Shown here: positions 9,618 through 64,000 of the stretch, in pieces
Numbering within the stretch: the stretch's first letter is position 1
How the letters are laid out: each line of letters begins with the position of its first letter
NCBI RefSeq assembly: GCF_027111335.1
Contig: NZ_CP114288.1
Span: 1,116,001 to 1,180,000, forward strand
Origin: Flavobacterium aquiphilum
GTDB lineage: Bacteria; Bacteroidota; Bacteroidia; Flavobacteriales; Flavobacteriaceae
Reading direction: 5' to 3'
DNA: 64,000 nucleotides
Made by a program: the position numbers and the translations under genes
The notes under the pieces: model-generated
Seen by the model: the letters and a program-made list of their open reading frames with translations, nothing else
Databases searched by the model: none
Told to the model about the DNA's origin: nothing

Positions 9618-11642
9618 ATGAAAAAGAATATCATCGTACTATCAGCCCTATTATTTTCGACTGTTTTTACAGCCCAAAATAAAGGTTTGGTTGCAAATTC
9701 TCAAAGTCCGTATTCAAAATTGAAGAGTGTAGGTTTGCAGGATGTACAATGGACAAACGGTTTTTGGAAAGAGCAATTTGATGTGGAAACCAAGAACACT
9801 TTACCTTATATGTGGGATTTGTATCATAACGATTCAATTTCGCACGCATACAAAAATTTTGAAATTGCTGCTGGTTTAAGCAAAGGTGTTTTCAAGGGGC
9901 CTTCTTTTCATGATGGTGATTTTTATAAAATATTTGAAGGAATGGCGGCGACTTATGCCGTAACAAAAGATAAAAAACTGGATGCCGAAATGGATGAGGC
10001 TATTGCGCTTTTTGCAAAAGTGCAACGCAAAGACGGTTATATTCATACTCCAGTTTTAATTGATGAGCGCTGGGGAACTTTAGGTCCAGAGGAAGTTAAA
10101 AAACAATTGGGTTTTGAGAAATACAACATGGGGCATTTGATGACTGCCGCCTGTATCCATTATCGTGCTACGGGAAAAACCAATTTTCTTGATATTGCAA
10201 AAGGCGTAGCCGATTATTTGTATGATTTCTATAAAAAAGCTTCACCTGAATTGGCACGAAATGCAATTTGTCCGTCACATTACATGGGCATTGTCGAAAT
10301 GTACCGCACAACGAAAAATCCAAAATATCTAGAATTGGCTAATAATTTGCTTGATATCAAAGGAACTACAGATGATGGAACCGATGACAATCAAGACAGG
10401 GTTCCGTTTAGGCAACAAACTACCGCAATGGGTCACGCCGTAAGAGCGAATTATTTGTATGCAGGTGTTGCCGATTTGTATGCCGAAACCGGAGAGAAAA
10501 AATTATTGGATAATTTGGAATCCATTTGGAATGATGTGACCTATCGCAAAATGTACATCACTGGTGCTTGTGGTTCCTTGTATGATGGGGTTTCACCAGA
10601 CGGAACTTCTTATGATCCAACAGTGGTTCAAAAAATTCATCAGGCATACGGAAGACCTTATCAATTACCAAATGCTACTGCTCATACTGAAACTTGCGCC
10701 AATATTGGAAATGTTTTATGGAATTGGAGAATGCTTCAAATTACTGCCGATGCCAAATATGCTGATATCGTTGAGTTGGCATTATATAATAGTGTACTGT
10801 CAGGAATCAGTTTGGAAGGAAAAGAATTTTTTTATAACAATCCGCTGAATGTTTCCAAAGATTTGCCTTTTAAACAAAGATGGAGCAGACAGCGTGAAGG
10901 CTATATTGCTTTGTCAAATTGTTGTGCACCAAACGTCACCAGAACCATAGCCGAAGTTAGCAATTATGCTTATAATCTTTCGAAAGAAGGTTTGTATGTT
11001 AATTTATATGGGGCTAATCATTTGAAAACTAAAAATTTAAATGGAGAAGAAATTGAAATTGAGCAAGAAACCAATTATCCTTGGTTTGGAAAAGTTATCT
11101 TGAAAATTGTGAAAGCTCCAAAAAGTGATCAGGCTTTTTTTCTGAGAATTCCGGGCTGGAGCCAAGGCGCAACAATTTCGGTTAATTCTAAAGCAATTAC
11201 AGAAAAAATTATTTCGGGTACTTATTTGAAAATTAATCAGAAATGGAAAAAAGGAGATGTTATCGAATTGAACATTCCGATGCCAATTGAATTAATGGAA
11301 GCAAATCCGTTAGTAGAAGAAGATAAAAACCAGATTGCCGTAAAAAGAGGACCAATTGTGTATTGCGTAGAATCTGATCAACTTCCGGCGAATGTTGGTA
11401 TTAATGATGTTTTTTTGAATATAAATTCAACTTTCAGCACCGATTTTATCAAAATTAATGATCGTAACATCCTTAGTATTAATGCAAGTTCATCAGCTTT
11501 TGGCGATAATTATTGGGACAAACAGTTGTACAAACCTTTGTCTGCAAAAATTGAGGCTCAGGAATTTGACGTTAAATTGATACCGTATTTTGCATGGGGA
11601 AACCATGGTAAAGGTGAGATGACAGTTTGGATGTCACATTAA
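9618..11642 (+). CDS. GH127-like beta-L-arabinofuranosidase (DUF1680 family)
   Basis: A 674-residue protein with a signal peptide (ending FTAQ). The (alpha/alpha)6 catalytic barrel begins with VQWTNGFWKEQFDV. The zinc/catalytic motif of GH127 is complete: Glu358 and Cys360 in HTETCANIGN, then Cys435-Cys436 in LSNCCAPNVTRT. The spacing matches the family prototype, where a cysteine is the nucleophile. C-terminal beta domains follow, including KRGPIVYCVE. Family members remove beta-L-arabinofuranose; at least one relative in RG-II breakdown acts on aceric acid instead, so the substrate is open. It lies between a pectate lyase and a pectin methylesterase. Confidence 0.9.
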   Translation: MKKNIIVLSALLFSTVFTAQNKGLVANSQSPYSKLKSVGLQDVQWTNGFWKEQFDVETKNTLPYMWDLYHNDSISHAYKNFEIAAGLSKGVFKGPSFHDGDFYKIFEGMAATYAVTKDKKLDAEMDEAIALFAKVQRKDGYIHTPVLIDERWGTLGPEEVKKQLGFEKYNMGHLMTAACIHYRATGKTNFLDIAKGVADYLYDFYKKASPELARNAICPSHYMGIVEMYRTTKNPKYLELANNLLDIKGTTDDGTDDNQDRVPFRQQTTAMGHAVRANYLYAGVADLYAETGEKKLLDNLESIWNDVTYRKMYITGACGSLYDGVSPDGTSYDPTVVQKIHQAYGRPYQLPNATAHTETCANIGNVLWNWRMLQITADAKYADIVELALYNSVLSGISLEGKEFFYNNPLNVSKDLPFKQRWSRQREGYIALSNCCAPNVTRTIAEVSNYAYNLSKEGLYVNLYGANHLKTKNLNGEEIEIEQETNYPWFGKVILKIVKAPKSDQAFFLRIPGWSQGATISVNSKAITEKIISGTYLKINQKWKKGDVIELNIPMPIELMEANPLVEEDKNQIAVKRGPIVYCVESDQLPANVGINDVFLNINSTFSTDFIKINDRNILSINASSSAFGDNYWDKQLYKPLSAKIEAQEFDVKLIPYFAWGNHGKGEMTVWMSH

Positions 11643-31200: not shown

Positions 31201-33075
31201 ATGACTGCATTTAAAAACATAAAAACCAATATAGTAACAGCATCAGCAATCCTACTGACTTGCGGAGCTGTAACTTCTGCATTGGCACAAAATGATACCG
31301 TACGATATACAGGCAAAACACTTTCGAATGTCGATTACCACCACGGGCAATTAGCTCCCGCAGTTGGAGTTCACGCGACACAGATAATGCGCGCAAGCAG
31401 GGAACATCCCGAAAAAGCCGATGGTTTGGGATGGACTTACAACCACCAACCGATGATGGCGTATTGGAACAATACCTTTTATTTGAATTATTTGAGCGAT
31501 CCAACAGGAGAACATATTCCGCCAAGTCAAACTTTTTTAATGACTTCGAAAGACGGCGTGACTTGGACAAAACCTACAGTGCTTTTTCCAATCTATAAAG
31601 TTCCCGATGGTTTTAAAAAAGAAGGAATGGAAGGCGTTGCCAAAAATATGGATGCGATTATGCACCAACGTATTGGCTTTTATGTTACTTCCGACAAAAA
31701 ATTGATTGCTATGGGTTATTATGGTGTAGCATTGGATAAAAAAGATGACCCAAATGACGGAAAAGGAATTGGCCGTGTCGTTCGCGAAATCTACAAAGAC
31801 GGGACTTTTGGACCAATTTATTTTATCCGATACAATAAAACCGGAAATCCGTTGCCAACAACCTTTCCGTTTTACACCAAAAGCAAGGACAAGAAATTTA
31901 TCAAAGCTTGTGACGAATTATTGTCTAAACCTTTGTTGATGCAACAATGGGTGGAAGAAGCCGATCGTGATGATGAATTGATTCCGTTAAAAAAACAATA
32001 CAAAGCTTTTAATTATTACCATTTGCCAAACGGAAATGTAGTCGGTTTATGGAAATTTGCTTTGACATCCATCAGTAAAGACGAAGGAAAAACTTGGGAA
32101 TACATCCCAACAAGAGCGCCTGGTTTTGTCAACAGCAATGCCAAGATTTGGGGACAAAAAACTTCGGATAACCGTTATGCAACTGTTTATAATCCGTCAG
32201 AATACCGTTGGCCATTGGCTATTTCAACTTCTGATGACGGATTGAACTACAAAGATTTATTGTTGGTTCACGGCGAAGTGAGTCCGATGCGTTACGGCGG
32301 AAACTACAAATCGGCAGGACCACAATACGTTCGAGGAATTTCCGAAACTGACGGAACTCCGCCTGACGGAAAACTGTGGGTAAGCTACAGTATGAACAAA
32401 GAAGATATTTGGGTGGCTTCGATTCCGGTTCCGGTGACTAGCGAAGTGAAAGAAAATGTCAATGATGTTTTCAATGATTTGCCAAATGGAGAAGAATTAA
32501 AATTATGGAATACCTATGATTTGGCTTGGGCTTCCGCCAAAGTGGAAAAGAAAACGGACGGCAAAAAAAGCCTAACTTTAAGAGATCAAGATGCTTTTGA
32601 TTATTCCCGTGCCGAGCGCGTGATTCCGTTTGCCAAAAAAATGGAAGCCACTTTTACTGTTAAGCCTGAACAAAACAATCACGGTTTACTGCAGGTGGAA
32701 TTTCAAAATGCACAAGGACTTCCTGCGATTCGCTTGGAATTCGATTCGGATGGGGAATTGAAAGCAAAAAATGGCGCCCGTTTTGGGGGCATTATGAAAT
32801 ATGAAGCCGGAAAGGAATATACTGTTACGGTTAAACTGAATGTGGCTAGTCGTTCTTATACCGTAAAAGTGAATGACGGCAAAGAAACCAACAAAATATT
32901 CTTTGCTCCGGTCGACGGAATTTCACGCATTATGTTCCGTACGGGAGAGCAACGTTATACACCAAATGCAGACACAGAACCGGATACACCGGATTTTACA
33001 GATTTGCCGGATACAGGAAAATTAATTCCCGAGGCGGTGTTTAATATTGAATCGTTGGTTACGAAAAAAATATAA
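31201..33075 (+). CDS. Secreted sialidase-fold beta-propeller protein with C-terminal lectin-like domain
   Basis: A 624-residue protein with a signal peptide ending SALAQ. Residues ~40-420 carry Asp-box-like motifs of sialidase propellers: TSKDGVTWTK, SKDEGKTWEY and STSDDGLNYKD. From ~435 to ~600 a concanavalin-like beta-sandwich follows (ATFTVKPEQNNHGLLQVEFQ, LNVASRSYTVKVNDG). No sialic-acid uptake or catabolic gene is in the window. In RG-II degradation, sialidase-fold enzymes act on keto-deoxy acids such as Kdo, so an acidic pectic sugar is a reasonable but untested substrate. I cannot name the CAZy family. It sits between GH43 and GH78. Confidence 0.7.
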   Translation: MTAFKNIKTNIVTASAILLTCGAVTSALAQNDTVRYTGKTLSNVDYHHGQLAPAVGVHATQIMRASREHPEKADGLGWTYNHQPMMAYWNNTFYLNYLSDPTGEHIPPSQTFLMTSKDGVTWTKPTVLFPIYKVPDGFKKEGMEGVAKNMDAIMHQRIGFYVTSDKKLIAMGYYGVALDKKDDPNDGKGIGRVVREIYKDGTFGPIYFIRYNKTGNPLPTTFPFYTKSKDKKFIKACDELLSKPLLMQQWVEEADRDDELIPLKKQYKAFNYYHLPNGNVVGLWKFALTSISKDEGKTWEYIPTRAPGFVNSNAKIWGQKTSDNRYATVYNPSEYRWPLAISTSDDGLNYKDLLLVHGEVSPMRYGGNYKSAGPQYVRGISETDGTPPDGKLWVSYSMNKEDIWVASIPVPVTSEVKENVNDVFNDLPNGEELKLWNTYDLAWASAKVEKKTDGKKSLTLRDQDAFDYSRAERVIPFAKKMEATFTVKPEQNNHGLLQVEFQNAQGLPAIRLEFDSDGELKAKNGARFGGIMKYEAGKEYTVTVKLNVASRSYTVKVNDGKETNKIFFAPVDGISRIMFRTGEQRYTPNADTEPDTPDFTDLPDTGKLIPEAVFNIESLVTKKI

Positions 33076-45013: not shown

Positions 45014-46159
45014 ATGAAATTGAAACAGATAACGATAGCCTTTTTTGGATTGCTACTTTTAGGAAGCTGTAAATCGGCTTTGGAAAAAAAGACTTGGAAA
45101 GAGGGAATTTTGGTAGATGAATTTATATACGACAAAGCGCCTTATCCGTCTTGTCACGCGGTAACGATTGTTGAGGCAACCAATGGTGATTTGGTGGCGT
45201 CATGGTTTGGCGGAACGGCTGAAAGAAATCCTGATGTGTGCATTTATGTGGCCATCAAACCAAAAGGAAGTGACAAGTTTAATGAAGGTGTAAAAGTAGC
45301 CGATGGTGTGATGCCTGATGGTAAAAGACTACCAACCTGGAATCCTGTTTTGTACCAAATTCCGGGAGGAGATTTAATGCTTTTTTATAAAATTGGACCA
45401 AAACCATCGGAGTGGTGGGGGGTAATCAGGACTTCATCGGATGGTGGAAAAACCTGGTCGGAAGCCAAAAAAATGCCGGATGGTTTCTTGGGACCAATCA
45501 AAAATAAGCCTGTTTTATTGAGTAATGGCACTTTGTTGTGTCCATCAAGCATTGAAGGTGATGGTTGGAGACTTCGAATGGAATCGACTCCTGATTTCGG
45601 AAAAACCTGGGTGATGGGAGATACTTTGTCAAGAGGAAAACAAAAAATAAATGCGATTCAGCCAAGTATTCTTTTCCATAAAGACGGAAGTATTCAGGCA
45701 ATAGGAAGAACGAGAAACAGGGCAATTTATAGCGCATTTTCTAGAGATAACGGAAAAACTTGGACGCCTTTAGAATTAATTGGATTGCCAAATAACAACT
45801 CAGGAACTGATGCTGTAACGTTGAAAAACGGGAAACATCTGTTGGTTTACAATCACGTTTTGCCTCCGGGAACCGAAGCAAAAGGACCAAGAACGCCATT
45901 GAACCTTTCTATTTCTGATGATGGAATCAACTGGAAAGCAGTTTTGGTTTTGGAAGATTCAAAAATCAGTCAATATTCGTATCCGTCGATCATTCAAAGT
46001 AAAGACGGAATGGTGCATATCGTTTACACCTGGAGAAGAGAAAAATTGAAATATGTAAAAGTTGATCCAAGTAAGTTGGTCGCTATTCCAATCAAAAACG
46101 GGATTTGGCCTGGTGATGAAGGTAAGGAAGTGAAAGCCGTTAAAGCGGAAGAGGAATAA
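45014..46159 (+). CDS. Sialidase-like (BNR-repeat) lipoprotein
   Basis: A 381-residue protein with a lipoprotein signal (Cys19 in LLLLGSC). The sialidase-type propeller has Asp-box motifs SSDGGKTWSE, STPDFGKTWV, SRDNGKTWTP and SDDGINWKA. VASWFGGTAERNPDVCIYVA resembles the first blade of BNR_2-type proteins. It is single-domain, unlike the 31201 protein. No sialic-acid genes are nearby; an uncharacterised pectic acid sugar is a more plausible substrate, as inference. It may start a sub-operon driven by the CAGGACGGT site. Confidence 0.75.
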   Translation: MKLKQITIAFFGLLLLGSCKSALEKKTWKEGILVDEFIYDKAPYPSCHAVTIVEATNGDLVASWFGGTAERNPDVCIYVAIKPKGSDKFNEGVKVADGVMPDGKRLPTWNPVLYQIPGGDLMLFYKIGPKPSEWWGVIRTSSDGGKTWSEAKKMPDGFLGPIKNKPVLLSNGTLLCPSSIEGDGWRLRMESTPDFGKTWVMGDTLSRGKQKINAIQPSILFHKDGSIQAIGRTRNRAIYSAFSRDNGKTWTPLELIGLPNNNSGTDAVTLKNGKHLLVYNHVLPPGTEAKGPRTPLNLSISDDGINWKAVLVLEDSKISQYSYPSIIQSKDGMVHIVYTWRREKLKYVKVDPSKLVAIPIKNGIWPGDEGKEVKAVKAEEE

Positions 46160-46287: not shown

Positions 46288-47181
46288 ATGATGTTAAATT
46301 TTCAAAAAAACTTAATTGTTGTATTGCTTGTTGCTTTGTCAGCAACATTCAGTAATGCAGTTTTGGCGCAATCCTCAAACAAAAAGCAACGTTATAACGT
46401 TGCGGTTTGTGACTGGATGATTTTAAAGAGACAAAAATTGGGCGCTTTTGAATTGGCATCCGAATTAAAAGCAGACGGAATCGAACTTGATATGGGAGGT
46501 TTGGGAAACCGTGAGACTTTTGACAGTAAACTCGCCGATCCTGTTGAGGTAGCAAAATTTAAGGATAAGTCTAAAGAGTTTAATGTTGGGATTTCTTCTA
46601 TTGCGATGTCTGGTTTTTACGGACAGTCATTTGCCAAGCGGGAAACCGTAAAAAGAATGGTGCAGGATTGTATTGATGCCATGAAAACCATGAATGTAAA
46701 AGTGGCATATTTGCCATTAGGGAATCAATGTGATTTGAGGAAAAATCCCGAATTACGCCCCATTATTATTGAACGATTGCAATGGGCAGCAAAACAGGTG
46801 GCTAAAATAGGAGGTGTTATCGCTATTGAAACTACTCTGGACGCCACGGCTGAGAGAAAATTATTGAAAGACATTGGTTGTAAACAAATCAAGAGTTCGT
46901 TTAATTTTTCGAATGCTATCGAAAATAAAAAAGACATTTCAGAAGAACTTTTAATTTTAGGTAAAAAGAATCTGGCTCAAATTCACGCTTCAAACACCGA
47001 TGGTTTTTGGTTGGAAAATGACAAAGCGATTGATATGCCAAAAATCAAAAAAACGCTGGACGAAATGAAATGGAGTGGTTGGTTGATTGTGGAGCGTTCC
47101 CGCGACACCACACAGGTACATAACGTTAAAGCCAATTACGGAGCCAACGTGGCCTACTTGAAGAAAATTTTTCAGAATTAA
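46288..47181 (+). CDS. Secreted sugar phosphate isomerase/epimerase-like TIM barrel
   Basis: A 297-residue protein with a signal peptide (ending AVLAQ) before a xylose-isomerase-like/AP-endonuclease-2-type TIM barrel: DGIELDMGGLGN, ISSIAMSGFYGQSF, VKVAYLPLGNQCD, GGVIAIETTLDA and the C-terminal MKWSGWLIVERSR. The family normally binds a divalent metal through Glu, Asp and His residues; Glu in IAIETT and His in QIHASNTDG are candidates. Export of an isomerase-type protein is seen repeatedly in Bacteroidota loci and suggests action on free or oligomeric sugars in the periplasm. Reaction unknown. Confidence 0.75.
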   Translation: MMLNFQKNLIVVLLVALSATFSNAVLAQSSNKKQRYNVAVCDWMILKRQKLGAFELASELKADGIELDMGGLGNRETFDSKLADPVEVAKFKDKSKEFNVGISSIAMSGFYGQSFAKRETVKRMVQDCIDAMKTMNVKVAYLPLGNQCDLRKNPELRPIIIERLQWAAKQVAKIGGVIAIETTLDATAERKLLKDIGCKQIKSSFNFSNAIENKKDISEELLILGKKNLAQIHASNTDGFWLENDKAIDMPKIKKTLDEMKWSGWLIVERSRDTTQVHNVKANYGANVAYLKKIFQN

Positions 47182-50508: not shown

Positions 50509-53500
50509 ATGAAGAAACTAGTTTATTTTATTTTTTATTTTTTTTCAATGTCTTGCCTTGTCTGGAGTCAAGGCAACAAGCAATCAGCGAAGTTTCGTAA
50601 AGAAGTTTCGCTGAATTCCTCTTGGGAAACCATTGTGATAAACAATCTTCCCGAGCAGGAAGAAAGTTTTGTCCAAAATCCAAAAGTGGATGCACAATGG
50701 CAAAAAGTAAACGTGCCCCACAATTGGGATCAATATTACGGTTTCCGAAGAACGAAACACGGCAATTTACACGGAACCGCCTGGTATCACAAAGGTTTGG
50801 TTTTAGATAAAAATGATAAAGGAAAACAATTGTTTTTGTTTTTTGAAGGCGTAAGCTCGTATGCAACGGTTTGGGTAAACGGTAAAAAAGTAGGCGAACA
50901 CAAAGGAGGAAGAACCACTTTTACGGTCGATATCACCAAAGCCGTTTCTTTCGAAAAAACAAATGACATAATCGTCAAAGCTGCTCATCCGTCATTCATT
51001 GCCGACTTGCCTTGGGTTTGCGGTGGATGTTCCGGAGAGTGGGGATTTTCAGAAGGCTCTCAGCCAATGGGGATTTTCAGACCGGTTACTTTGGTCGTTA
51101 CCGATGCGATTCGAATAGAGCCTTTCGGGATTCACGTTTGGAATGACAAAACAACTTCCAAAGAAAAAGCGATTTTGAACGTTACTGCCGAAATCAAAAA
51201 CTACGGGAATTCCAATCGAAATGTAACGGTAGTAAATACCCTTTTTGACAAAGAAGGAAAGAAAGTCACTTCTTCTCAAACGGAACTAAATAGCGTTGCA
51301 GGCGAAACCAAAGAATTGCTGCATACGTTACCGGAAATTTTAAAGCCCCAATTATGGTCACCTTCAAATCCTTATTTGTATCAATTGGTTACCACAATTT
51401 TGGAAAACGGAAAGAAAATAGACGAAGTAAAGACGCCTTACGGAATCCGTTGGGTTTCTTGGCCGGTGAGCCGTGACGGAAAAGACAATCGTTTTTTCAT
51501 CAACGGCGAACCATTATTCATCAACGGAACCTGCGAATACGAACACTTGATTGGGAACAGCCATTCATTTTCAAACGAGCAGATTCATTCGAGAATTGAG
51601 CAAATAAAAGCGGGCGGTTTCAATGCTTTTCGTGAAGCGCACCAACCGCATAATTTGGAATACCAAAAAGAATTGGACGTAAACGGAATCCTGTTTTGGA
51701 GTCAGTTTTCGGCACATATTTGGTACGACACACCCGAATTCAAAGAGAATTTCAAAACCTTACTGAGAGAATGGATTAAGGAACGCAGAAACAGTCCGTC
51801 GGTAGTTATGTGGGGACTGCAAAACGAAAGCACCATTCCGAAGGAATTTGCGGAAGAATGTACCAAAATCATCCGCGAAATGGATCCGATGTCGGCGCAA
51901 CAACGTATCGTCACAACCTGTAACGGAGGCGAAGGAACCGATTGGAATGTCGTTCAAAACTGGTCGGGAACTTATGGTGGCGATCCGTTCAATTACGATG
52001 TTGAAATGAGCACCCAATTATTAAACGGTGAATATGGAGCGTGGCGTTCACACGACCTTCATACCGAAGGCGAATTTGATCAAAAAGGAACTTTGAGTGA
52101 GAACCGTTTTTCTCAACTAATGGAAATAAAAGTCCGTGAAGCCGAATCGGTAAAAAATAAAATCGCAGGGCAATTCAATTGGATTTTTGCCTCACACGAA
52201 AATCCGGGTCGTGTTCAAAACGGCGAGGGATTCAGGGATATCGACAAGGTTGGCCCCGTGAATTACAAAGGGCTTTTCAGTATTTGGGGAGAACCTTTGG
52301 ATGCCTATTATATGTATCGTGCCAATTACGTTTCGAACAAAACCAACCCGATGGTTTATATCGTTTCTCACACTTGGCCAAGCCGTTGGGATACGCCGGG
52401 AATCAAAAATGGTATCGATGTGTATTCCAATTGTGATGAGGTGGAGTTGTTCAATGATGTCAATAAATCGTCATTGGGCAAATTGAAAAATCCGGGCTTG
52501 GGACAGCATTTTCAGTTTAATAACGTCAATATTCAATACAATGTTTTATATGCGGTTGGTTACGTAAATGGAAAAGCGGTGGCCAAAGATTACATTGTTT
52601 TGAATTCGTTGCCAAAAGCGCCAAATTTCAAAGCATTGGAAACCCAAGAAGAAACTTTGTTGCAACCTCAAAAAGGCTACAATTACGTTTACAGGGTTAA
52701 TGCAGGAGGCCGTGAAATCAAGGATGCTAACGGAAATATTTGGCAAGCCGATGTTCATAAAAGTGGGGAGAACACCTGGGGTTCTTTGTCGTGGACGGAC
52801 AGTTTCAAGCAATTGCCTGATTTTTACGCGAGTCAACGCAGCACTTTCGACCCAATTGCAGGAACCAAAGATTGGAATTTGTTCCAAAGTTTTAGATATG
52901 GAATCGACAAACTTCGTTACGAATTTCCGGCTCCCGATGGTGAATATTTGGTGGAATTATATTTCACCGAGCCTTGGTACGGAACTGGTGGCGGAATGGA
53001 TTGCAAAGGCTGGCGTTTGTTTGACGTAGCCATCAATGACAATGTGGTTTTGAAAGATTTGGATATTTGGTCAGAAGTTGGTCACGATGTTGCTTTGAAG
53101 AAAACTTTTGTCGTAAAAAGCAAAAACGGTAAAATAACGATTTCATTCCCGAATGTAAAAGCGGGTCAGGCGATTATTTCAGCCATTGCGATTGCAACCA
53201 AAGATAAAACGGTTAAAGGAGCTTCGGCTTCGCCTAAAAAGATTCAATATGTTGTGGCAAATTCACAAACTAAAGTCGGTTCTTGGTTGGACATCAATTC
53301 GAAACAATATTTAGATTCTGAAGTTGTTTTTACGCAATTGCCATCGGAATTATTTGGTGCCGATTATCTGCAAATTCCATCCAATGGTAAAGTTTCAGGT
53401 TCTTTTGTAGCCAAGGAAGATTCAGAAATATATTTGTTTAACACATCAAAAGATTCTGTTTCGGGTTATAAAAAAATGACGGAAACGGCTAGAAATTCAA

Positions 53501-54006
53501 ACAAAGTCGAGTTCTCAGTTTTCCATAAAAAAGTTAAAAAAGGAGAGATAGTAGGTTTCGAAAATAATACAATGGCAGTTGTCCCGACTTATGATATGGG
53601 CGAAAAAAATGATTCAAGACCTGTCGTGCTTTTGGAAGCTGAAACCGCTAAAACAACCGGAACCGGAATCGAAAAAGGAAATTTTAAAAAAGCGGATTAT
53701 ATTGAGTTCACTTCCAAAACAAACAACAGTATTCAGTTTGAAGTAAAACCGGGCGTTGCGGGAATTTACCTGATGCGTTTCAAATTTATGAACAGAAATG
53801 CAACACCAATCAAAGTAAAGTTTAAAATGGAAGATGCCTACGGAATCCTGATGCGAAATGATACGATTGAATTTCCGTCTGCTACCGAAAAATGGAAGAT
53901 TGTAAGCACCACTTCTGGCGGTTACATCAACGCGGGAACCTATAAAATCACTTTAGAATCAGACGATATGAAAGGATTGTTGTTGGATTCTTTTGAGTTT
54001 CAGTAG
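50509..54006 (+). CDS. GH2 beta-galactosidase-like enzyme with malectin and C-terminal CBM-like domains
   Basis: An 1165-residue protein with a signal peptide (to about residue 20). The GH2 sugar-binding domain (WQKVNVPHNWDQYY, VWVNGKKVGEHKGG) and Ig-like domain lead to the TIM barrel. There Glu440 in WGLQNEST is the acid/base and Glu508 in LLNGEYGAWR the nucleophile candidate. From ~725 to 905 a malectin-type module follows (YVYRVNAGGREIKDANG, YLVELYFTEPWYG). A C-terminal CBM6/35-like beta-sandwich begins at LLEAETAKTTG. It probably removes beta-galactosyl or related residues from pectic side chains. The long C-terminal extension makes it much larger than the following GH2. Confidence 0.88.
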   Translation: MKKLVYFIFYFFSMSCLVWSQGNKQSAKFRKEVSLNSSWETIVINNLPEQEESFVQNPKVDAQWQKVNVPHNWDQYYGFRRTKHGNLHGTAWYHKGLVLDKNDKGKQLFLFFEGVSSYATVWVNGKKVGEHKGGRTTFTVDITKAVSFEKTNDIIVKAAHPSFIADLPWVCGGCSGEWGFSEGSQPMGIFRPVTLVVTDAIRIEPFGIHVWNDKTTSKEKAILNVTAEIKNYGNSNRNVTVVNTLFDKEGKKVTSSQTELNSVAGETKELLHTLPEILKPQLWSPSNPYLYQLVTTILENGKKIDEVKTPYGIRWVSWPVSRDGKDNRFFINGEPLFINGTCEYEHLIGNSHSFSNEQIHSRIEQIKAGGFNAFREAHQPHNLEYQKELDVNGILFWSQFSAHIWYDTPEFKENFKTLLREWIKERRNSPSVVMWGLQNESTIPKEFAEECTKIIREMDPMSAQQRIVTTCNGGEGTDWNVVQNWSGTYGGDPFNYDVEMSTQLLNGEYGAWRSHDLHTEGEFDQKGTLSENRFSQLMEIKVREAESVKNKIAGQFNWIFASHENPGRVQNGEGFRDIDKVGPVNYKGLFSIWGEPLDAYYMYRANYVSNKTNPMVYIVSHTWPSRWDTPGIKNGIDVYSNCDEVELFNDVNKSSLGKLKNPGLGQHFQFNNVNIQYNVLYAVGYVNGKAVAKDYIVLNSLPKAPNFKALETQEETLLQPQKGYNYVYRVNAGGREIKDANGNIWQADVHKSGENTWGSLSWTDSFKQLPDFYASQRSTFDPIAGTKDWNLFQSFRYGIDKLRYEFPAPDGEYLVELYFTEPWYGTGGGMDCKGWRLFDVAINDNVVLKDLDIWSEVGHDVALKKTFVVKSKNGKITISFPNVKAGQAIISAIAIATKDKTVKGASASPKKIQYVVANSQTKVGSWLDINSKQYLDSEVVFTQLPSELFGADYLQIPSNGKVSGSFVAKEDSEIYLFNTSKDSVSGYKKMTETARNSNKVEFSVFHKKVKKGEIVGFENNTMAVVPTYDMGEKNDSRPVVLLEAETAKTTGTGIEKGNFKKADYIEFTSKTNNSIQFEVKPGVAGIYLMRFKFMNRNATPIKVKFKMEDAYGILMRNDTIEFPSATEKWKIVSTTSGGYINAGTYKITLESDDMKGLLLDSFEFQ

Positions 54007-56603: not shown

Positions 56604-57845
56604 ATGGAAAGAGTTTTTGCAGAATATCTCATAGAAACGCCTTATGAAGTAGAACAGGCTGCGGCGGTTTTGGCGGGTGAGCAATCATCGGGGACTTTTG
56701 TGTCCGTTCCGGGCGAAACCGAAGAGTTGAAAAAACGTTTTGCAGCCCGTGTGGAGGATATTCAATTATTGGGTTTGGCAGATGAACCATCCATTCCGGG
56801 AGGTAATATTCCTGGAAAAAAATACCAACAGGCAAGGGTAAAAGTGAGTTGGTCGATAGAGAATTTTGGATATAACCTGCCAGTTTTGATCAGTACGTTA
56901 CAGGGAAATTTATACGAAATCACACAGTTCACTGGTTTAAAATTGATGGATTTCGACGTTCCGGATTCTTTCAAAAAACATTTCAAGGGACCAACATTCG
57001 GAATCAAAGGTTCCAAATTATCCTGCGGAGTGACTGACAGACCGATGATTGGTACGATTATAAAACCAAGTATCGGAATGAGCGTGGAGGAAACCGCAAC
57101 TTTGGTAAAATCCCTGATTGATGCCGGAATCGATTTTATTAAAGACGATGAATTGATGGGATCGGCAGCAAATTCTTTTTTTGATGACCGTGTAAAAGCG
57201 ATTATGAAAGTCATTCGTGACAACGAACAAAAAACGGGTAAAAAAGTGATGTATGCTTTCAATATCAGTGATGAAATTGACGAAATGCAACGCAAATACG
57301 ATTTGATTTTACAAGAAAAAGGAAGCTGTGCGATGGTTAGTATTAACAGCGTTGGGCTTTCGGGGACAAAGAAAATCTGCGATCGGGGCGAACTTGTCAT
57401 CCACGGACACAGAAACGGTTGGGGTATGCTGAACAGACATCCTTTATTGGGAATTGAATTTCCTGCCTACCAAAAAATACAGCGTTTGGCAGGAGTCGAT
57501 CAATTGCACGTCAACGGAATTCAAAATAAATTTTGGGAATCGGATGATTCGGTGGTGACATCAATAAAATCCTGTTTGAAACCCTTTTTGGGCGGAAACG
57601 AAATTTTGCCGGTAGTATCTTCAGGACAATGGGGAGGACAAGCAGTAGAAACTTATCGAAGAACCCAAACTACCGATTTGCTGTATATGGCGGGAGGCGG
57701 AATTTTGGCACACCCAATGGGACCAAAAGCAGGTGTAAACGCATTACAGCAGGCTTGGGAAGGAGCCGTTGACGGTTTGTCTGTAGAAGAAACGGCCAAA
57801 AAGTACCCTGAATTTGCAGAATCGGTTAAGAAGTTTTCAAAATGA
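56604..57845 (+). CDS. RuBisCO-like protein (form IV type), probable acid-sugar phosphate lyase/decarboxylase
   Basis: A 413-residue cytoplasmic protein without signal peptide, similar to RuBisCO large subunit but probably not a CO2-fixing enzyme. Conserved elements are TIIKPSIGMS with Lys154 (counterpart of catalytic Lys175), FIKDDE with Lys180, Asp182 and Glu183 (counterparts of the carbamylated Lys201 and metal ligands), HGHRNGWG, and NGIQNKFWE with Lys309 in the loop 6 position. Known relatives paired with DUF1537 kinases act on 3-oxo-acid-sugar 4-phosphates, for example in D-apiose catabolism. The start of the downstream kinase overlaps its stop (ATGA). Specific reaction is inference. 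Confidence 0.85.
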   Translation: MERVFAEYLIETPYEVEQAAAVLAGEQSSGTFVSVPGETEELKKRFAARVEDIQLLGLADEPSIPGGNIPGKKYQQARVKVSWSIENFGYNLPVLISTLQGNLYEITQFTGLKLMDFDVPDSFKKHFKGPTFGIKGSKLSCGVTDRPMIGTIIKPSIGMSVEETATLVKSLIDAGIDFIKDDELMGSAANSFFDDRVKAIMKVIRDNEQKTGKKVMYAFNISDEIDEMQRKYDLILQEKGSCAMVSINSVGLSGTKKICDRGELVIHGHRNGWGMLNRHPLLGIEFPAYQKIQRLAGVDQLHVNGIQNKFWESDDSVVTSIKSCLKPFLGGNEILPVVSSGQWGGQAVETYRRTQTTDLLYMAGGGILAHPMGPKAGVNALQQAWEGAVDGLSVEETAKKYPEFAESVKKFSK

Positions 57846-59227
57846 TGAATCAGAAAGATAAATTACTGCTGGCCTATTATGGCGACGATTTCACGGGCTC
57901 CACGGATGCCCTAGAATTTCTGACGTTGGCCGGAGTAAAAACCGTTCTCTTTCTTCAAAAGCCGACCCAAAAAGATTTGGATCGTTTTCCTGGAATCCAG
58001 GCCATTGGCTTGGCCGGAAAAAGCAGGTCGTTGTCACCTTCGGAAATGGAAACGGAACTTTTTCCCGCTTTTGAAAATTTGAAAAGTTTTGAACCGACAC
58101 ATTTTCATTACAAAGTCTGTTCCACTTTCGATTCGGCGCCACACGTTGGAAACATTGGAAAAGCAATAGAAATTGGAAGCGAAGTTTTTAATCAAAAAGT
58201 AGTTTTGGTTTCGCCATCAGCGCCACATTTGGGACGTTTTTGTGTTTTCGGAAATCTTTTTGCACGAATGGGGACTATCGGTAACGGGGAAATTTACCGT
58301 ATTGACAAACATCCGTCGATGAGCAAACATCCCGTAACGCCAGCTTTGGAAGGAGATTTGACCATTCATTTGGCAAAACAAACGGAGAAATCCATAGGTC
58401 TTGTCAATTTGACCACAATTGAAAAAGGCTCAAGCGAAGTTCTTGAAGCGGTTAACGACAGTAAAACTGAAATTCTGTTTTTTGACGGTTTCAATTTGGA
58501 GCACCTCAAAACCATAGGAAGTGTTTTTAATCAATTGGCAACAGAAAAAACATTGTTTTCCGTGGGTTCATCCGGAATAGAAATGGCTTTGGGATTGGAT
58601 TGGAAAGCAAAAAATATTATTGGAAACGAATTAAAATTTAAATCGGCTGGAGAAGTTTCACCTTTATTGGTTTTATCGGGAAGCTGTTCTCCTGTGACTT
58701 CAAATCAAATTATATATGCTTTGGGAAATGGATTTCTCGAAATTGCTCTAGAAAGCAAAGCCGTTGATAGTGATTATCAAACTGAAATTATAAAGAATAC
58801 CGTTGATCAAATCATAACCAATTTCAATCAGGGTAAAAGTACTGTTTTGCATACCAGTACAGGTTCCAACGATCCGCGTATTGCTGAAACAGAAGCTTTT
58901 TTTATAGCCAAAGGTATTTCTGCAAATGAGATTCAGAAACAGTGTAGTAGCATTTACGGAAGTGTTTTGGGACAAATAACCAAAGAAGTATTAAAGGTAG
59001 TTCCACTGAAAAGAATTCTTTTTGCAGGAGGCGATACCTCTAGTTATGCCGCCTCTGAATTGGATATTCTGGCATTGGAAATGATTGCTCCAATTGCACC
59101 GGGAGCACCGCTTTGCAAGGCGATTTCAGACAATGAATGGGTTAATGGAATAGAAATGAATTTTAAGGGAGGACAAGTAGGTACTGCCGATTATTTTATA
59201 AAAGTTTTAAAAGGAGAAAAATTATGA
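57842..59227 (+). CDS. Four-carbon acid sugar kinase family protein (DUF1537)
   Basis: A 461-residue cytoplasmic kinase of the DUF1537 family, which phosphorylates tetronates, 3-oxo-tetronates or 3-oxo-isoapionate. Seen in the sequence are the N-terminal acid-binding motif YGDDFTGSTDALEFL and the C-terminal ATP-binding-type region LFAGGDTSSYAASELD with APGAPLC. The length is normal. It overlaps the RuBisCO-like gene by four bases at its start (next in-frame Met at 57845) and the racemase-like gene by four bases at its end, indicating translational coupling. In known pathways the kinase makes the phosphorylated acid that the RuBisCO-like enzyme cleaves or decarboxylates. The true substrate is unknown. 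Confidence 0.88.
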   Translation: MMNQKDKLLLAYYGDDFTGSTDALEFLTLAGVKTVLFLQKPTQKDLDRFPGIQAIGLAGKSRSLSPSEMETELFPAFENLKSFEPTHFHYKVCSTFDSAPHVGNIGKAIEIGSEVFNQKVVLVSPSAPHLGRFCVFGNLFARMGTIGNGEIYRIDKHPSMSKHPVTPALEGDLTIHLAKQTEKSIGLVNLTTIEKGSSEVLEAVNDSKTEILFFDGFNLEHLKTIGSVFNQLATEKTLFSVGSSGIEMALGLDWKAKNIIGNELKFKSAGEVSPLLVLSGSCSPVTSNQIIYALGNGFLEIALESKAVDSDYQTEIIKNTVDQIITNFNQGKSTVLHTSTGSNDPRIAETEAFFIAKGISANEIQKQCSSIYGSVLGQITKEVLKVVPLKRILFAGGDTSSYAASELDILALEMIAPIAPGAPLCKAISDNEWVNGIEMNFKGGQVGTADYFIKVLKGEKL

Positions 59228-59886
59228 GCGCAAAAATTTTAGGTTTTGTACATACATCAGCAACATTGGTCCCATTGTTTCAGCAATTAAGCAGTGAATT
59301 TTTAAATGGTGTAGAAACGTTCAATATCGTTGATGATAGTTTGATAAAAGACGTAATCAAAAAAGGCAAATTAATGCCTAATACGGCAGCGAGAGTGGTG
59401 AGCCACGTTCAGTCTGCCGAAGCTGCAGGAGCCGATGTGATTTTGGTAACTTGTTCGTCCATTGGTGTGGCGATAGAAACCGCTGCAACTTTGAGTTCTG
59501 TTCCGGTGATTCGGGTAGATCAGGCAATGGCGGATGAAGCAGTACAAATCAGCAACAAAATAGGTGTGATCGCTACTTTACCAACTACTTTGGAACCAAC
59601 AAGCGATTTAGTTCGAAGAAGAGCAGAATTAGCAGGTAAAAATGTAACGATTTCTTCCAAATTATGCGAAGGAGCTTTCGAAGCTTTAATGAGCGGTAAT
59701 GCAGCCAAACACGATGAAATGGTTGCTAACGCTTTGAAAGAATTAATGAAAGAGGTTGATGTGATTGTTTTGGCGCAAGCTTCGATGGCTCGTGTTGTCG
59801 ATGGTTTGAGCGCTGACGAAAAAGTAGTGCCAATTTTGGCAAGTCCTGCAATTGCCATGAAAAAACTGGCAGAGGTTTATTTCTAA
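59224..59886 (+). CDS. Asp/Glu racemase-fold protein with a single catalytic cysteine
   Basis: A 220-residue cytoplasmic protein of the Asp/Glu/hydantoin racemase superfamily. The first site is kept (Cys77 in LVTCSSIG). At the second site, where racemases have an LGC-type motif, this protein has IVLAQASMAR with no Cys; the other Cys148 is in SKLCEGAF, a different place. Two-base racemisation is therefore unlikely. Related one-cysteine enzymes include decarboxylases and cis-trans isomerases. It overlaps the kinase stop and lies 17 bases before the transporter. A role in processing an acid sugar or its product is likely; the exact reaction is unknown. Confidence 0.75.
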   Translation: MSAKILGFVHTSATLVPLFQQLSSEFLNGVETFNIVDDSLIKDVIKKGKLMPNTAARVVSHVQSAEAAGADVILVTCSSIGVAIETAATLSSVPVIRVDQAMADEAVQISNKIGVIATLPTTLEPTSDLVRRRAELAGKNVTISSKLCEGAFEALMSGNAAKHDEMVANALKELMKEVDVIVLAQASMARVVDGLSADEKVVPILASPAIAMKKLAEVYF

Positions 59887-59903
59887 CTTTAATAATCATT
59901 TGT

Positions 59904-61190
59904 ATGCGTAAATATTTTCTTTGGGCTGCCCCGATATTTTTCATTGTAGCTGGTTTGGGTTGGTTGCAGCAAATAGACCTCATTTCGAAAATGGGATTGA
60001 TTCTGGGATTTTCAAGTATTGCCATAGGGGTAGGACATGTGAAAATATTGAGCGGTTATCAATATACATTTTGGATCATTACAGCGGTTTGTGCCGGATT
60101 ACTTTATCCTAACTTTTTCCTGCATGTGGGTAGCTTTGATATGCGCAACAAGTGGCTAATCTTAATTATCATTCAAATGGTGATGTTCGGAATGGGAACC
60201 CAGATGAGTATTGAGGATTTTACGGGAATCCGAAAATCAGGCAGGGGTGTATTGATTGGTTTGTTGGGACATTTTACGATTATGCCGATTATGGGATTTT
60301 TGATTGCCAAGACCTTTGGTTTCGAACCCGAAATCGCTGCGGGAATCATCTTGATTGGTTCATGCAGCAGCGGATTAGCATCGAATGTGATGACTTATAT
60401 TGCTAAAGGGAATTTGGTTTTATCTGTTACTGTAACAGCTATGTCAACTTTGACTGCGCCAATTATGACTCCATTTTTGATGAAGATATTTGCAGGCACC
60501 ATGGTCGAAGTACATTTCTTTGACATGATGATGGAAATTATCAAGATTGTCCTTGTGCCTTTGTCTGCAGCAATGATTCATGATGTTTTGAAAAATCATG
60601 GACTGGCAGCAAAAAAACAAATCTATCTTTTGGCAATTTTTTCAGCAGTTTGGCTTGTTATTTTTGCTTGCTTTGGGAATGCTTTTTCAGTTCCTGAAGA
60701 TAATACTGTTGCACATATTTTGGAAATTGTAAACTTCTCCTGTGGAGCATTCGTTGTGGGTTCGCTCTATCATTTGCTGTATAAAAACTTTCCCAAAATA
60801 GATCTCATTATGCCTTATTTCTCAATGTTCGGAATCATTTATTTTACTCTGGTAACCACGGCAGCCGGAAGGGATAATTTGATTCAGATAGGGTTTTTAC
60901 TTTTCCTAGCTTCGGTACTGCACAATGGAGCAGGTTATTTTTTTGGTTATTGGGTTAGTCGAATTAGTGGACTCGACAAAAAAAGCAGTCAGACTATCGC
61001 TTTTGAAGTTGGTCTTCAAAACGGAGGAATGGCTTCGGGGCTGGCGGGTGCAATGGGCAAATTAGCAACGGTCGGTTTGGCTTCTGCAGTGTTCAGTCCT
61101 TGGATGAATGTTTCGGGTTCGTTGCTTGCTAATTATTGGCGGAAAAAAGACAATCGTGATGCACCAGAAATTGCTCCAGTTGCCAATTAA
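59904..61190 (+). CDS. Bile acid:sodium symporter (BASS) family membrane transporter
   Basis: A 428-residue inner-membrane protein with about ten hydrophobic segments. Family-like stretches are GMGTQMSIEDFTGI, LIGLLGHFTIMPIMGF, AAGIILIGSCSSGLASNVMTYIAKGN and AFEVGLQNGGMASGLA. The two halves show the inverted-repeat architecture of sodium-coupled organic-anion transporters. It is the last gene of the RuBisCO-like/kinase module and a good candidate for moving the acid sugar, or a pathway acid product, across the inner membrane. The first ~75 residues hold two extra hydrophobic segments before the core. It is followed by a strong terminator. Confidence 0.85.
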   Translation: MRKYFLWAAPIFFIVAGLGWLQQIDLISKMGLILGFSSIAIGVGHVKILSGYQYTFWIITAVCAGLLYPNFFLHVGSFDMRNKWLILIIIQMVMFGMGTQMSIEDFTGIRKSGRGVLIGLLGHFTIMPIMGFLIAKTFGFEPEIAAGIILIGSCSSGLASNVMTYIAKGNLVLSVTVTAMSTLTAPIMTPFLMKIFAGTMVEVHFFDMMMEIIKIVLVPLSAAMIHDVLKNHGLAAKKQIYLLAIFSAVWLVIFACFGNAFSVPEDNTVAHILEIVNFSCGAFVVGSLYHLLYKNFPKIDLIMPYFSMFGIIYFTLVTTAAGRDNLIQIGFLLFLASVLHNGAGYFFGYWVSRISGLDKKSSQTIAFEVGLQNGGMASGLAGAMGKLATVGLASAVFSPWMNVSGSLLANYWRKKDNRDAPEIAPVAN

Positions 61191-61197
61191 AAACAGT

Positions 61198-61225
61198 AAA
61201 CTCCATTTTTTAGATGGAGTTTTTT
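61198..61225 (+). terminator. Intrinsic terminator ending the PUL
   Basis: AAACTCCAT (61198-61206) pairs with ATGGAGTTT (61214-61222) across a seven-base loop, followed by a T run to 61225. It starts eight bases after the transporter stop. It marks the border between the pectin locus and the opposite-strand arsenic genes. Confidence 0.85.
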
Positions 61226-61356: not shown

Positions 61357-62424
61357 TTAATCGAAAGTATAATATTTTTTTCTAAACCAAAAAGCGAGAT
61401 TAACCAGTGCGATGAGTGCTGGCACTTCTACCAAGGGGCCAATAACTCCCGCAAATGCTTCGCCACTATTTATTCCAAAAACACCTATTGCAACAGCAAT
61501 GGCCAATTCAAAATTATTTCCAGTAGCGGTAAAAGCTATTGATGTTGCTTTTGAGTAATCGGCTCCAAAGTATTTCCCAATAAAAAAACTTATTAAAAAC
61601 ATAATTGTAAAGTAAACTACCAGCGGAATAGCGATTCTTAGAACATGAATTGGAATTTGAACAATCAGCTCTCCTTTTAAACTAAACATAAGAATGATTG
61701 TAAAAAGCAAAGATATCAGTGTGATAGGCGAAATAAAAGGAACGTATTTCGTTTCAAACCATTCGGTTCCTTTCCATGCAAGAAGAAAATAACGGCTGAG
61801 AATTCCAAGTGCAAAAGGAATGCCTAAATATATTCCGACGCTCTCTGCAATCTGACCGATACTAATATCAATTTTAAAACCATGATACCCAAAATACGGA
61901 GGAAGAACAGTAATAAAGATATAGGCATAGATACTGTAAAGCAACACTTGAAAGATGCTATTGAGAGCAATAAGTCCGGTTGTGTACTCCCTGTTGCCTT
62001 CTGCCAAGTCGCTCCAAACTATTACCATGGCGATGCATCGTGCCAAACCAATCAGAATGACCCCAACCATGTATTCAGGGTAATTGCCTAAAAAAAATAA
62101 GGCCAGTATAAACATTAAAACAGGGCCAATAATCCAGTTTAATAAAAGCGAAGCCCCCAAGATTTTGACATTTTTAAAAACTTGTCCGATTTGATCGTAC
62201 TTTACTTTTGCCAATGGAGGATACATCATTAGAATTAATCCAATAGCCAAAGGAATGTTTGTTGTTCCATTTGAAAAGGAATTAATAAAATTACTGCTCG
62301 ATGGTATAAAATAACCTATTGTTACTCCTACTACCATGGCTAGAAAAATCCAAAGTGTAAGAAAGCGGTCTAAAAAGCCTAATTTTTTTCGTCCAATTAC
62401 TGGCGCACAGTTATTTATTGACAT
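61357..62424 (-). CDS. acr3: Acr3-family arsenite efflux permease
   Basis: A 355-residue membrane protein with about ten transmembrane segments. It carries the Acr3 signature [18 protein letters not shown] with the conserved Cys130 and, near the end, [20 protein letters not shown] with the conserved Glu. [19 protein letters not shown] is also typical. It extrudes arsenite using the proton gradient. The gene begins two bases after the arsenate reductase stop in transcription order, so the two are one operon. It is convergent with the pectin locus. Confidence 0.93.
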
Positions 62425-62426
62425 TA

Positions 62427-63056
62427 TTATTGTTTAATTTGTGAGAATACATAAAACATTTCAGTTCCTATTTGAAGGCTTCGTTCCTGATAAATTTGTT
62501 TTTGTTGAGGTGTTCCATCAGAAATTTTTGGATCTTCAAAAGTGATTGGAATGCGTTTTTCTGCACCAGAAATAAATGGACAACCTTCATCGGCGTGTGA
62601 ACAGGTCATTACCGCTGCAAAATCACTTGCAGGATTAAAGTTGTCATCATAGGTTTTAGAAAAACCAATAACAGGATGCTCATTGGCTGAAAACTTTATC
62701 GAATATATAGGATTTTTTCCTTCTGAAATATTTTTGATTTGGAAGCCTGTTTGTTGCAAGGTTTCAACGACCATTGGGTATAAAGCTGTAGCCTCCGTGC
62801 CTCCCGAGTAGCAAGTTACTCCTTGGACGTTATAAAACGCACTTGCCGTCTGTGCCCAGACTTGTGATAAATGACTTCTTCTTGAGTTATGTGTGCAAAT
62901 TAAATTAAGTCTTATTTCTTGCTTATTGTTAACTTTATTTTGAATGTAATCTACTAATGGTTGTAAAGTCTGCTTGCGTTCTTCGGATATTTGGTTAAAG
63001 TCAAATGAGCGAATCACATTTTCAATTTCTGAATAAAGAATATTTTTATTAATCAT
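62427..63056 (-). CDS. arsC: Phosphatase-type arsenate reductase (low-molecular-weight PTP-like)
   Basis: A 209-residue cytoplasmic protein. The phosphate-binding loop is CTHNSRRS with Cys54 and Arg60 (CX5R), and a redox-type cysteine region [12 protein letters not shown] follows, as in phosphatase-fold reductases. It reduces arsenate to arsenite for export by Acr3. It is longer than the smallest ArsC proteins because of an N-terminal helical extension of ~48 residues, common in Bacteroidota. It lies 24 bases after the DUF6428 gene in transcription order and two bases before acr3. Confidence 0.88.
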
Positions 63057-63080
63057 AATTACTTTTTTATTGTTTTGGAA

Positions 63081-63527
63081 TTAGCAACAACCAGTGCCAG
63101 GAGTGCATGAATTCGATGTTTTAGTTTTTTCTGAAGTGATACCACATTGTTCCTGTGCAAGACAAGCAGTATGTTTATTTAATAAAATGAAATTTTTACC
63201 ATTAAAATCAAGATCATATTTACCAATAGTCGTGTCTTGATATTCGACTTCGATTTCATAATCTTCGATACCCAAAACTTTTTGCGAAAGCTCAATAATA
63301 TGAATCAGCTTTTGTGGTTTTAGTCGATGATCGTAGTCATTGGCATCCCAAAGTTGGAAGTTAACAACGGTTTCTTTTCTGACTGTTCCGCCGCAATCAA
63401 TAAAATTTTTGGTTATCAGACCAACTTCAGTCACGTGAAAATACTCAGGAACAAAAGTCCCATTTGGTAATTCAAAATTTACTGTTTCAACTGTTTTTAG
63501 TGTTTCTTTAATTTCTGAAAGTTTCAT
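63081..63527 (-). CDS. DUF6428-type protein with cysteine-rich C-terminal tail
   Basis: A 148-residue cytoplasmic protein without signal peptide. I associate the sequence (LPNGTFVPEYFHVTEVGLITKNFIDCGGTVRKETV) with DUF6428, a family found with ars genes in Bacteroidota. It ends SCTPGTGCC (Cys141, Cys147, Cys148) and has further cysteines in TACLAQEQCG. A cluster of cysteines could bind arsenite or protect against it; that is inference. Its position between the GNAT gene and arsC, with small gaps, points to co-transcription. Confidence 0.75.
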   Translation of the reverse strand: MKLSEIKETLKTVETVNFELPNGTFVPEYFHVTEVGLITKNFIDCGGTVRKETVVNFQLWDANDYDHRLKPQKLIHIIELSQKVLGIEDYEIEVEYQDTTIGKYDLDFNGKNFILLNKHTACLAQEQCGITSEKTKTSNSCTPGTGCC

Positions 63528-63573
63528 GATTTCTATTTTTTAATTAAACAACTATCTTTTAAATAATTTGGAA

Positions 63574-64000
63574 TTAACTGAAGAGTTTACTTCTTCTTTC
63601 TAAGAGAACTGTGTCCCGCCAAATTCCATTTTGTTTTCCGATTTTTTCTCTGACACCCAATATCCGAAATCCAGCTTTTTCATGTATGCGAAGGCTTGCG
63701 GTGTTTTCCGGAAAAATTCCTGCTTGCACAGTCCACAGCCCTTCTGCTTCGCTTAAGGCTACAAGTTCGTTTAAAAGAGCAAGACCTATTCCTTTTCCGG
63801 AATATGCCGGATCAACATAAACGCTAACTTCTGCTACTCCAGCATAAACGCAGCGTGACGAAACAGGTGTGAGCGCGGCCCATCCTGTCAATATACCATC
63901 AGTTTCTGCTACAATTCTGCAATTATTAAGATGGGATTTGTCCCATTCTTCCCATGATGGGGCGCTAGTTTGAAAAGTAGCGTTTCCAGTGGCTATGCCT
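63574..64000 (-). CDS. GNAT N-acetyltransferase, phosphinothricin-acetyltransferase-like (5'-truncated by window edge)
   Basis: The frame is open from the window end to a stop at 63574; 141 residues are visible, starting GIATGNATFQTSAPSWEEW, so the start lies beyond 64000. The phosphinothricin acetyltransferase-type GNAT features are VSVYVDPAYSGKGIGLALL (acetyl-CoA loop, GKGIG), IFPENTASLRIHEKAGF and the C-terminal GIWRDTVLLERR. Family members encoded in ars clusters (ArsN1 type) acetylate the arsenic antibiotic arsinothricin, so an arsenic role is plausible. It is 46 bases upstream of DUF6428 on the same strand. Confidence 0.82.
   Translation of the reverse strand, partial: GIATGNATFQTSAPSWEEWDKSHLNNCRIVAETDGILTGWAALTPVSSRCVYAGVAEVSVYVDPAYSGKGIGLALLNELVALSEAEGLWTVQAGIFPENTASLRIHEKAGFRILGVREKIGKQNGIWRDTVLLERRSKLFS

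Follow-up and report, generated by a model that had tools for sequence, protein, structure and literature searches.

According to a passage of PMC12282258, Bacteroides thetaiotaomicron cuts rhamnogalacturonan II (RG-II) with 22 enzymes, and knowledge of RG-II metabolism is there called limited; a passage of PMC10850190 gives BT1003, a GH127 protein, the name aceric acid hydrolase. While the enzymes that cut RG-II are known, the bacterial fate of its strangest sugars is less clear. To our knowledge, no breakdown route has been described for aceric acid, an uncommon branched sugar acid found in plant pectin, and none of the titles listed in searches of open-licence papers concerns aceric acid catabolism. 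For a strain growing on D-apiose, part of PMC11747546 lists an apionolactonase, an apiose dehydrogenase, an apionate oxidoisomerase, a 3-oxoisoapionate kinase and a 3-oxoisoapionate-4-phosphate decarboxylase. Here we analyse a 64,000-nucleotide stretch of Flavobacterium aquiphilum DNA, hereafter the window (positions 1116001-1180000 of a 5.05 Mb one-contig genome), and an operon of four genes within it. With a probability of roughly 0.7, we read this operon as a cytoplasmic catabolic module for L-aceric acid freed from RG-II by a GH127 enzyme of the same locus, the substrate being assigned from gene context.

The four genes lie on the plus strand and encode a RuBisCO-like protein (RLP; 56604..57845, an open reading frame (ORF) of 413 aa; Pfam RuBisCO_large, 8.3e-62), a DUF1537 acid-sugar kinase (KIN; 57842..59227, 461 aa; SBD_N, 1.6e-53, and NBD_C, 5.1e-30), a single-Cys protein of the Asp/Glu racemase fold (RAC; 59224..59886, 220 aa; Asp_Glu_race, 1.3e-23) and a BASS-family transporter (59904..61190, 428 aa; Pfam SBF, 1.2e-35). 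The ORF coordinates agree with the tight packing described in the earlier note: the RLP/KIN and KIN/RAC junctions are 4-base overlaps, 17 bases separate RAC from the BASS gene, and RLP starts 30 bases past a GH2 gene ending at 56573. The four families named there are borne out by Pfam matches over cut-off, and RAC does have one of the two family Cys at the catalytic positions, as the name one-cysteine racemase fold had implied.

The operon and the apionate system both have an adjacent kinase and RLP decarboxylase, and the operon RLP is 49-59% identical to the RLPs of 24 loci with ApnO- or ApnL-like genes (see below). Unlike that system, the operon has no ApnL-like, ApnO-like or apiose-dehydrogenase-like gene, carries RAC and the BASS transporter instead, scores under the OiaX and OiaK cut-offs and is linked to a GH127 aceric acid hydrolase (9618..11642, plus strand; NF049879, 1105.9 bits, cut-off 950), which we propose supplies the substrate. 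The window further holds an RG-II alpha-galacturonidase (1539 bits, cut-off 1300) and Pfam matches to apiosidase, GH106, GH78, GH95, GH28, pectinesterase and SusC/D-type proteins, so the operon, which stands at the end of this RG-II locus, is indeed attached to a pectin locus, as had been suggested. Like the Bacteroides system of BT1003 and its partners, the window has an alpha-galacturonidase and a GH127 aceric acid hydrolase along with further RG-II families. No locus titled Bacteroides was among the best 80 of 547 RLP loci, and Bacteroides ihuae, taken as a control, has an over-cut-off aceric acid hydrolase.

The proposed route and its enzymes

From the genes, their families, co-occurrence and adjacency, and from the fold and invariant residues of the proteins, we infer the following transport, reactions and order of steps. 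The GH127 hydrolase would free L-aceric acid, which we take to be 3-C-carboxy-5-deoxy-L-xylose, with the structures and stereochemistry assumed throughout, and the BASS protein would import it across the inner membrane. RAC would then convert the aldose to the 2-ketose, KIN would phosphorylate the C1 hydroxyl of keto-aceric acid, and the RLP would decarboxylate this alpha-hydroxy-beta-keto acid to 5-deoxy-L-xylulose 1-phosphate. The last step would parallel that of OiaX on 3-oxo-isoapionate 4-phosphate, the two substrates differing only in CHOH-CH3 versus CH2OH on the carbinol carbon. A rhamnulose-1-phosphate aldolase could finally split 5-deoxy-L-xylulose 1-phosphate, which presumably shares the 3R,4S configuration of L-rhamnulose 1-phosphate, into dihydroxyacetone phosphate and acetaldehyde. 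The genome has a gene for a bifunctional enzyme of this kind (rhamnulose-1-phosphate aldolase/dehydrogenase; TIGR02632, 932 bits, cut-off 568). It lies upstream of the window, ending about 17 kb from it and about 74 kb before the operon, and its neighbours are an over-cut-off L-fucose dehydrogenase and a gene resembling fuconolactonase (277 bits, cut-off 400); four more Aldolase_II matches lie elsewhere in the genome. Such a route would be redox-neutral up to the aldolase, so the dehydrogenases missing from the window would not be needed.

Among NCBIfam models, the RLP is nearest to OiaX (NF042437, 500.2 bits) and KIN to OiaK (NF042436, 422.5 bits), each under an equivalog cut-off of 700; because of these scores, and because the partner genes are not in the operon, we do not class the operon as an apionate system. 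KIN reaches 187 bits against the 3-oxo-tetronate kinase model (cut-off 350) and the RLP 247.6 bits against true form III RuBisCO (TIGR03326, cut-off 497), whereas the DUF1537 kinase domains of KIN are well over threshold (SBD_N 182.3 bits, cut-off 25; NBD_C 105.6 bits, cut-off 28.3). RLP residues K154, K180, D182, E183, H267, H269 and R270 are identical in 81 of 81 aligned rows and K309 is kept in 80 of the 81. The RLP has the active-site residues of the RuBisCO superfamily, with Lys-Asp-Glu metal ligands (which we take to be K180, D182 and E183) and a catalytic Lys (presumably K154).

The nearest named relatives of the RLP are from Flavobacterium. On an RLP tree from a brief search, whose branch support is SH-aLRT alone, the RAC label changes 9 times on the best tree, at least 7 of these changes being forced by supported branches. 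A single clade of RAC-bearing RLPs is rejected (approximately unbiased (AU) test, p 2e-132), and the RLP-KIN pair has thus joined RAC or ApnO more than once. Among 13 filtered columns with the window residue, no RLP residue marking RAC-type loci is common to all RAC clades; the only columns in agreement with another clade are 88 and 256, with one such clade each.

RAC has the fold of the Asp/Glu racemase superfamily. In a profile alignment to 3qvj, Cys77 is kept and the position of the second catalytic Cys is Gln185, so that the two catalytic Cys of Asp/Glu racemases proper are not both present. In contrast to aspartate racemase (1jfl) and allantoin racemase (3qvj) of PF01177, which have both, RAC combines one Cys with an invariant Gln185 and its family has a motif of its own, LAQ(A/G)SM. 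Arylmalonate decarboxylase, as a passage of PMC4996985 describes it, is a member of the same superfamily with a single active-site Cys, but it has Gly at the first site and Cys at the second, whereas in RAC these sites hold Cys and Gln, respectively. To judge from these residues, the Cys and invariant Gln of RAC would fit a one-face proton transfer. We propose that RAC is the aceric acid aldose-ketose isomerase, an assignment less sure than the pathway itself. We know of no aldose-ketose isomerase activity in this superfamily; if the proposal is true, RAC would do a job outside the known activities of its protein family.

The BASS protein passes the Pfam SBF threshold (123.4 bits, cut-off 24.3) and is under cut-off for the NCBIfam PanS and bass models. 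Relatives of it were found by tblastn in 28 of the 80 RLP loci described below, every one of which also has RLP and RAC. In loci L075 and L077 a gene of one cluster adjoins RAC where the BASS gene would be; the L077 member is an MFS transporter, as expected if the replaced gene has a role in uptake.

Gene neighbourhoods and the aceric acid hydrolase

The 80 loci (L numbers are locus labels) were fetched from named genomes with the RLP as query, at 48-96% identity, as the top 80 of 547. Twenty-four of them (L001-L022, L025, L037), spanning Bacteroidota, Balneolota, Verrucomicrobiota and Planctomycetota, repeat the order RLP-KIN-RAC-BASS, and the module thus survives the refuting test set beforehand in the earlier note, namely that the four genes might not co-occur in other genomes. 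Three Sphingobacterium loci (L026, L027, L032) have the order RAC-BASS-RLP-KIN. By tblastn, RAC is present in 44 of the 80 loci and an ApnO-like gene in 25, with both in 3 (L045, L065, L074); two more loci (L031, L040) have an ApnL-like gene only, bringing the ApnO/ApnL loci without RAC to 24, and the fetched stretch of 12 loci has neither set. The RLP-KIN pair therefore has two main settings, apionate-type and RAC. An ApnL-like gene is also present in 11 of the 25 ApnO-like loci, and 12 of the 25 have a Gfo/Idh/MocA dehydrogenase with at least 33% identity; the lower-identity dehydrogenase matches of 8 RAC loci (22-27%) were set aside. The domains of the ApnO-like gene are PGDH_C and KARI_N, and context and domains suggest that the L059 protein is ApnO; the ApnL-like protein of L059, the sole one scanned, scores 289 bits against a cut-off of 750.

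The two settings differ in their hydrolases: with all kinds counted, 23 of the 44 RAC loci have a GH127-type gene, compared with 0 of the 24 ApnO/ApnL loci (Fisher 2.7e-6, not corrected for relatedness). The cluster to which the window's GH127 belongs occurs in 14 RAC loci, once as a contig-edge fragment (L017), and by tblastn at 46% identity or more in 0 of the 36 non-RAC loci. In nine loci from three phyla (L009-L013, L015, L018, L019, L054) the hydrolase ends at most about 150 bases 5' of RLP on the same strand, and in L062 it ends 18 bases before RAC. Each of the five Sphingomonad/Granulicella-clade loci (L043, L058, L072, L075, L077) has a distant GH127 (102-113 bits to the GH127 cluster profile) 5' of RLP, and in four of them it ends no more than 40 bases away. 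The general idea of the earlier note, that a branched or acidic pectin sugar is the substrate, is supported by this division, which points to aceric acid, with RAC-type cassettes accompanying the aceric acid hydrolase and apionate-type ones carrying other genes and mostly lacking RAC.

In Paenibacillaceae (L039, L050, L053, L060, L122) the place directly 5' of RAC is taken by a 575-aa protein, and its family (c37; L053:7530-9257, with relatives in L039, L049, L050, L060 and L122) adjoins RAC or RLP. The one member scanned has no Pfam or NCBIfam match. The protein has ETC and CC motifs like the window GH127, the first 11 structure rows listed for its AF2 model are GH127, and hhalign matches it to GH127 with a probability of 50; because the model is poor (pLDDT 55.6), these matches are leads only, and c37 may be a new glycoside hydrolase family.

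Searching whole genomes extended the count of RAC. A match (E <=1e-20) was found in 14 of the 36 genomes whose fetched locus had none. Six of the 12 genomes with neither gene set have strong matches of 239-346 bits (L024, L046, L049, L057, L061, L079) and L048 weak ones, and 7 of the 24 ApnO/ApnL genomes have weak matches of 98-187 bits. When the places of the 7 weak and 6 strong matches were inspected (one of two in L046 and L061, two of three in L040, L048 left out), the LAQ(A/G)SM motif was in the aligned stretch of all 6 strong ones and, among the weak ones, only in L067 (LAQASM, 98 bits). Some RAC genes thus lie outside the fetched flanks, making 44 of 80 a lower bound. For the hydrolase, 48 genomes were counted as RAC-side, namely those of the 44 RAC loci and of L024, L028, L049 and L079, L028 being included despite having no RAC match; the 32 others include L046, L057 and L061, which have RAC elsewhere in the genome and best hydrolase matches of 480, 508 and 503 bits. 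An over-cut-off hydrolase is present in 26 of the 48 RAC-side genomes and 0 of the 32 others, and matches above 830 bits in 33 and 2, respectively; in 8 of the RAC-side genomes nothing matches at E <=1e-100. These counts use the curated cut-off, which is stricter than the chosen stand-in of E <=1e-283 reached by 13 of the 14 GH127 cluster members.

A separate sample of 392 Bacteroidota genomes (RAC threshold E <=1e-30) contains an over-cut-off hydrolase in 21 and RAC in 8, and a close RLP (67-100% identity) in exactly these 8, with 66 further RLPs of about 30% identity set aside. All 8 RAC genomes are within the 21 hydrolase genomes (hypergeometric 1.6e-11, relatedness ignored), and in each the hydrolase and RAC are on one contig within 58 kb. 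By coordinate match, at least three of the 8 (G021, G080, G286) are the genomes behind L004, L011 and L013, so the two data sets overlap.

Several observations weigh against aceric acid as the substrate. No GH127-type gene lies in the fetched stretch of 21 of the 44 RAC loci, and L028 has no RAC match despite an over-cut-off hydrolase and an RLP with 62% identity. Supported branches of the tree leave 4 independent pairs, of which on average 2.6 point the same way, 0 the opposite way and 1.4 show no difference (median p 0.25, not significant). Near-cut-off hydrolases occur in 2 of the 32 non-RAC-side genomes, the Verrucomicrobia metagenome-assembled genomes L033 (907 bits) and L034 (942 bits). 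Hydrolase and RAC are some 48-57 kb apart in the window and in the other three Flavobacterium-type genomes among the 8. No RAC match was found in 13 of the 21 over-cut-off hydrolase genomes, from which it follows that many of the bacteria that degrade RG-II may free aceric acid but not consume it by the RAC route. As a control for RG-II in general, an alpha-galacturonidase was found in 19 of the 392 genomes and in 7 of the 8 module genomes; the eighth, G286, has no over-cut-off galacturonidase, and its hydrolase match is about 36 bases from the RLP match. The hydrolase therefore marks RG-II loci generally, and co-occurrence by genome is not enough to pick out aceric acid.

A wider claim would be that this is the first L-aceric acid catabolic pathway, assembled more than once from an OiaK/OiaX-like pair and a single-Cys racemase-fold aldose-ketose isomerase, and that the Paenibacillaceae 575-aa protein founds a new GH127-like family of aceric acid hydrolases; we put it forward tentatively.

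Alternative readings

The alternative that survives best keeps aceric acid as the substrate and lets RAC epimerise or tautomerise another intermediate, with an unlinked sugar isomerase performing the first step. It would keep RAC among the activities for which its superfamily is known in the relevant passages of PMC4996985 and PMC12661438 (racemases, maleate isomerases and single-Cys decarboxylases), and a single catalytic Cys could serve one-base epimerisation. However, in compact loci (L010, L054) RAC is the only recurrent cytoplasmic enzyme besides RLP and KIN, so a separate isomerase would need to be unlinked every time, and we consider this variant unlikely.

A second alternative is a modified D-apionate pathway, with KIN and RLP acting as OiaK and OiaX on 3-oxo-isoapionate and RAC replacing the oxidoisomerase. 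Their nearest models are those of OiaK and OiaX, an apiosidase-family gene lies in the window (26862-28268, Pfam), and three Acidobacteria loci have both RAC and an ApnO-like gene. However, ApnO catalyses an NAD-linked oxidation, which a cofactor-free racemase fold is unlikely to replace. The ApnO-like query from L059, which finds 25 of the 80 loci, has no match in the F. aquiphilum genome, window or flanks, although such an empty result is weak evidence; the ApnL query has no match in this genome, but it matched nothing in the 14 controls either. Furthermore, the 24 ApnO/ApnL loci have no GH127-type neighbour, and their genomes have only the weak RAC matches given above, in 7 cases. Transketolase genes like those of what we take to be a non-oxidative apiose route lie near RAC in 8 loci, and the F. 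aquiphilum genome has a relative of one of them at 63%. Since RAC and the ApnO-like gene, in 44 and 25 loci, meet in only 3 of the 80, we regard D-apionate as a distinctly improbable substrate.

Least credible by far is breakdown of a different RG-II acid (Kdo, Dha or a keto-deoxy acid) by the operon: sialidase-fold genes, presumably Kdo/Dha enzymes when in RG-II loci, do match in the window at 31201-33075 and 45014-46159, but their two clusters, from which this was judged with no dedicated search, recur in 1 of the 80 loci (L013) against 23 of 44 RAC loci for GH127-type genes, and presumably neither Kdo nor Dha offers an OiaX-type decarboxylase a carboxylated tertiary carbinol.

Other features of the window and related loci

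In the three Acidobacteria loci L045, L065 and L074, RLP, KIN, RAC and the ApnO-like gene lie in one region, where the kinase and decarboxylase could possibly be shared by two branched sugars. Split transketolase genes, like those of a non-oxidative apiose route, lie near the RLP region in L001, L014, L025, L026, L027, L032, L039, L049, L050 and L122, with an FGGY kinase in all but L014. The Cohnella cholangitidis genome has two RLP-KIN loci (L046, L122), one without RAC beside a GntR-type regulator-cluster gene and the other with RAC and transketolase genes.

Within the RG-II locus of the window, a GH2 gene at 50509-54006 scores 1574 bits against a beta-glucuronidase/beta-L-arabinofuranosidase model (cut-off 1800); the match begins only at profile position 361, and the first quarter of the model is thus missing. 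A secreted-looking xylose-isomerase-like TIM barrel in the same locus (46288-47181) was considered as the isomerase and rejected, given a signal peptide recognised by eye and a cluster found in only 2 of the 80 loci (L005, L021). Directly 3' of the BASS gene, a stem-loop with a T run (61198..61222, plus strand), found by pattern match, could be the operon end; terminator-like sites in the scanned region number 9 against 6.9 expected, that is, not above chance. Beyond it, on the minus strand at 61357-63999, lie genes for a second SBF-family transporter, a DUF6428 protein and a 209-aa protein with no Pfam match, together with an acetyltransferase-like ORF truncated where the window ends; by eye, this block is apparently arsenic-type and unrelated to the operon.

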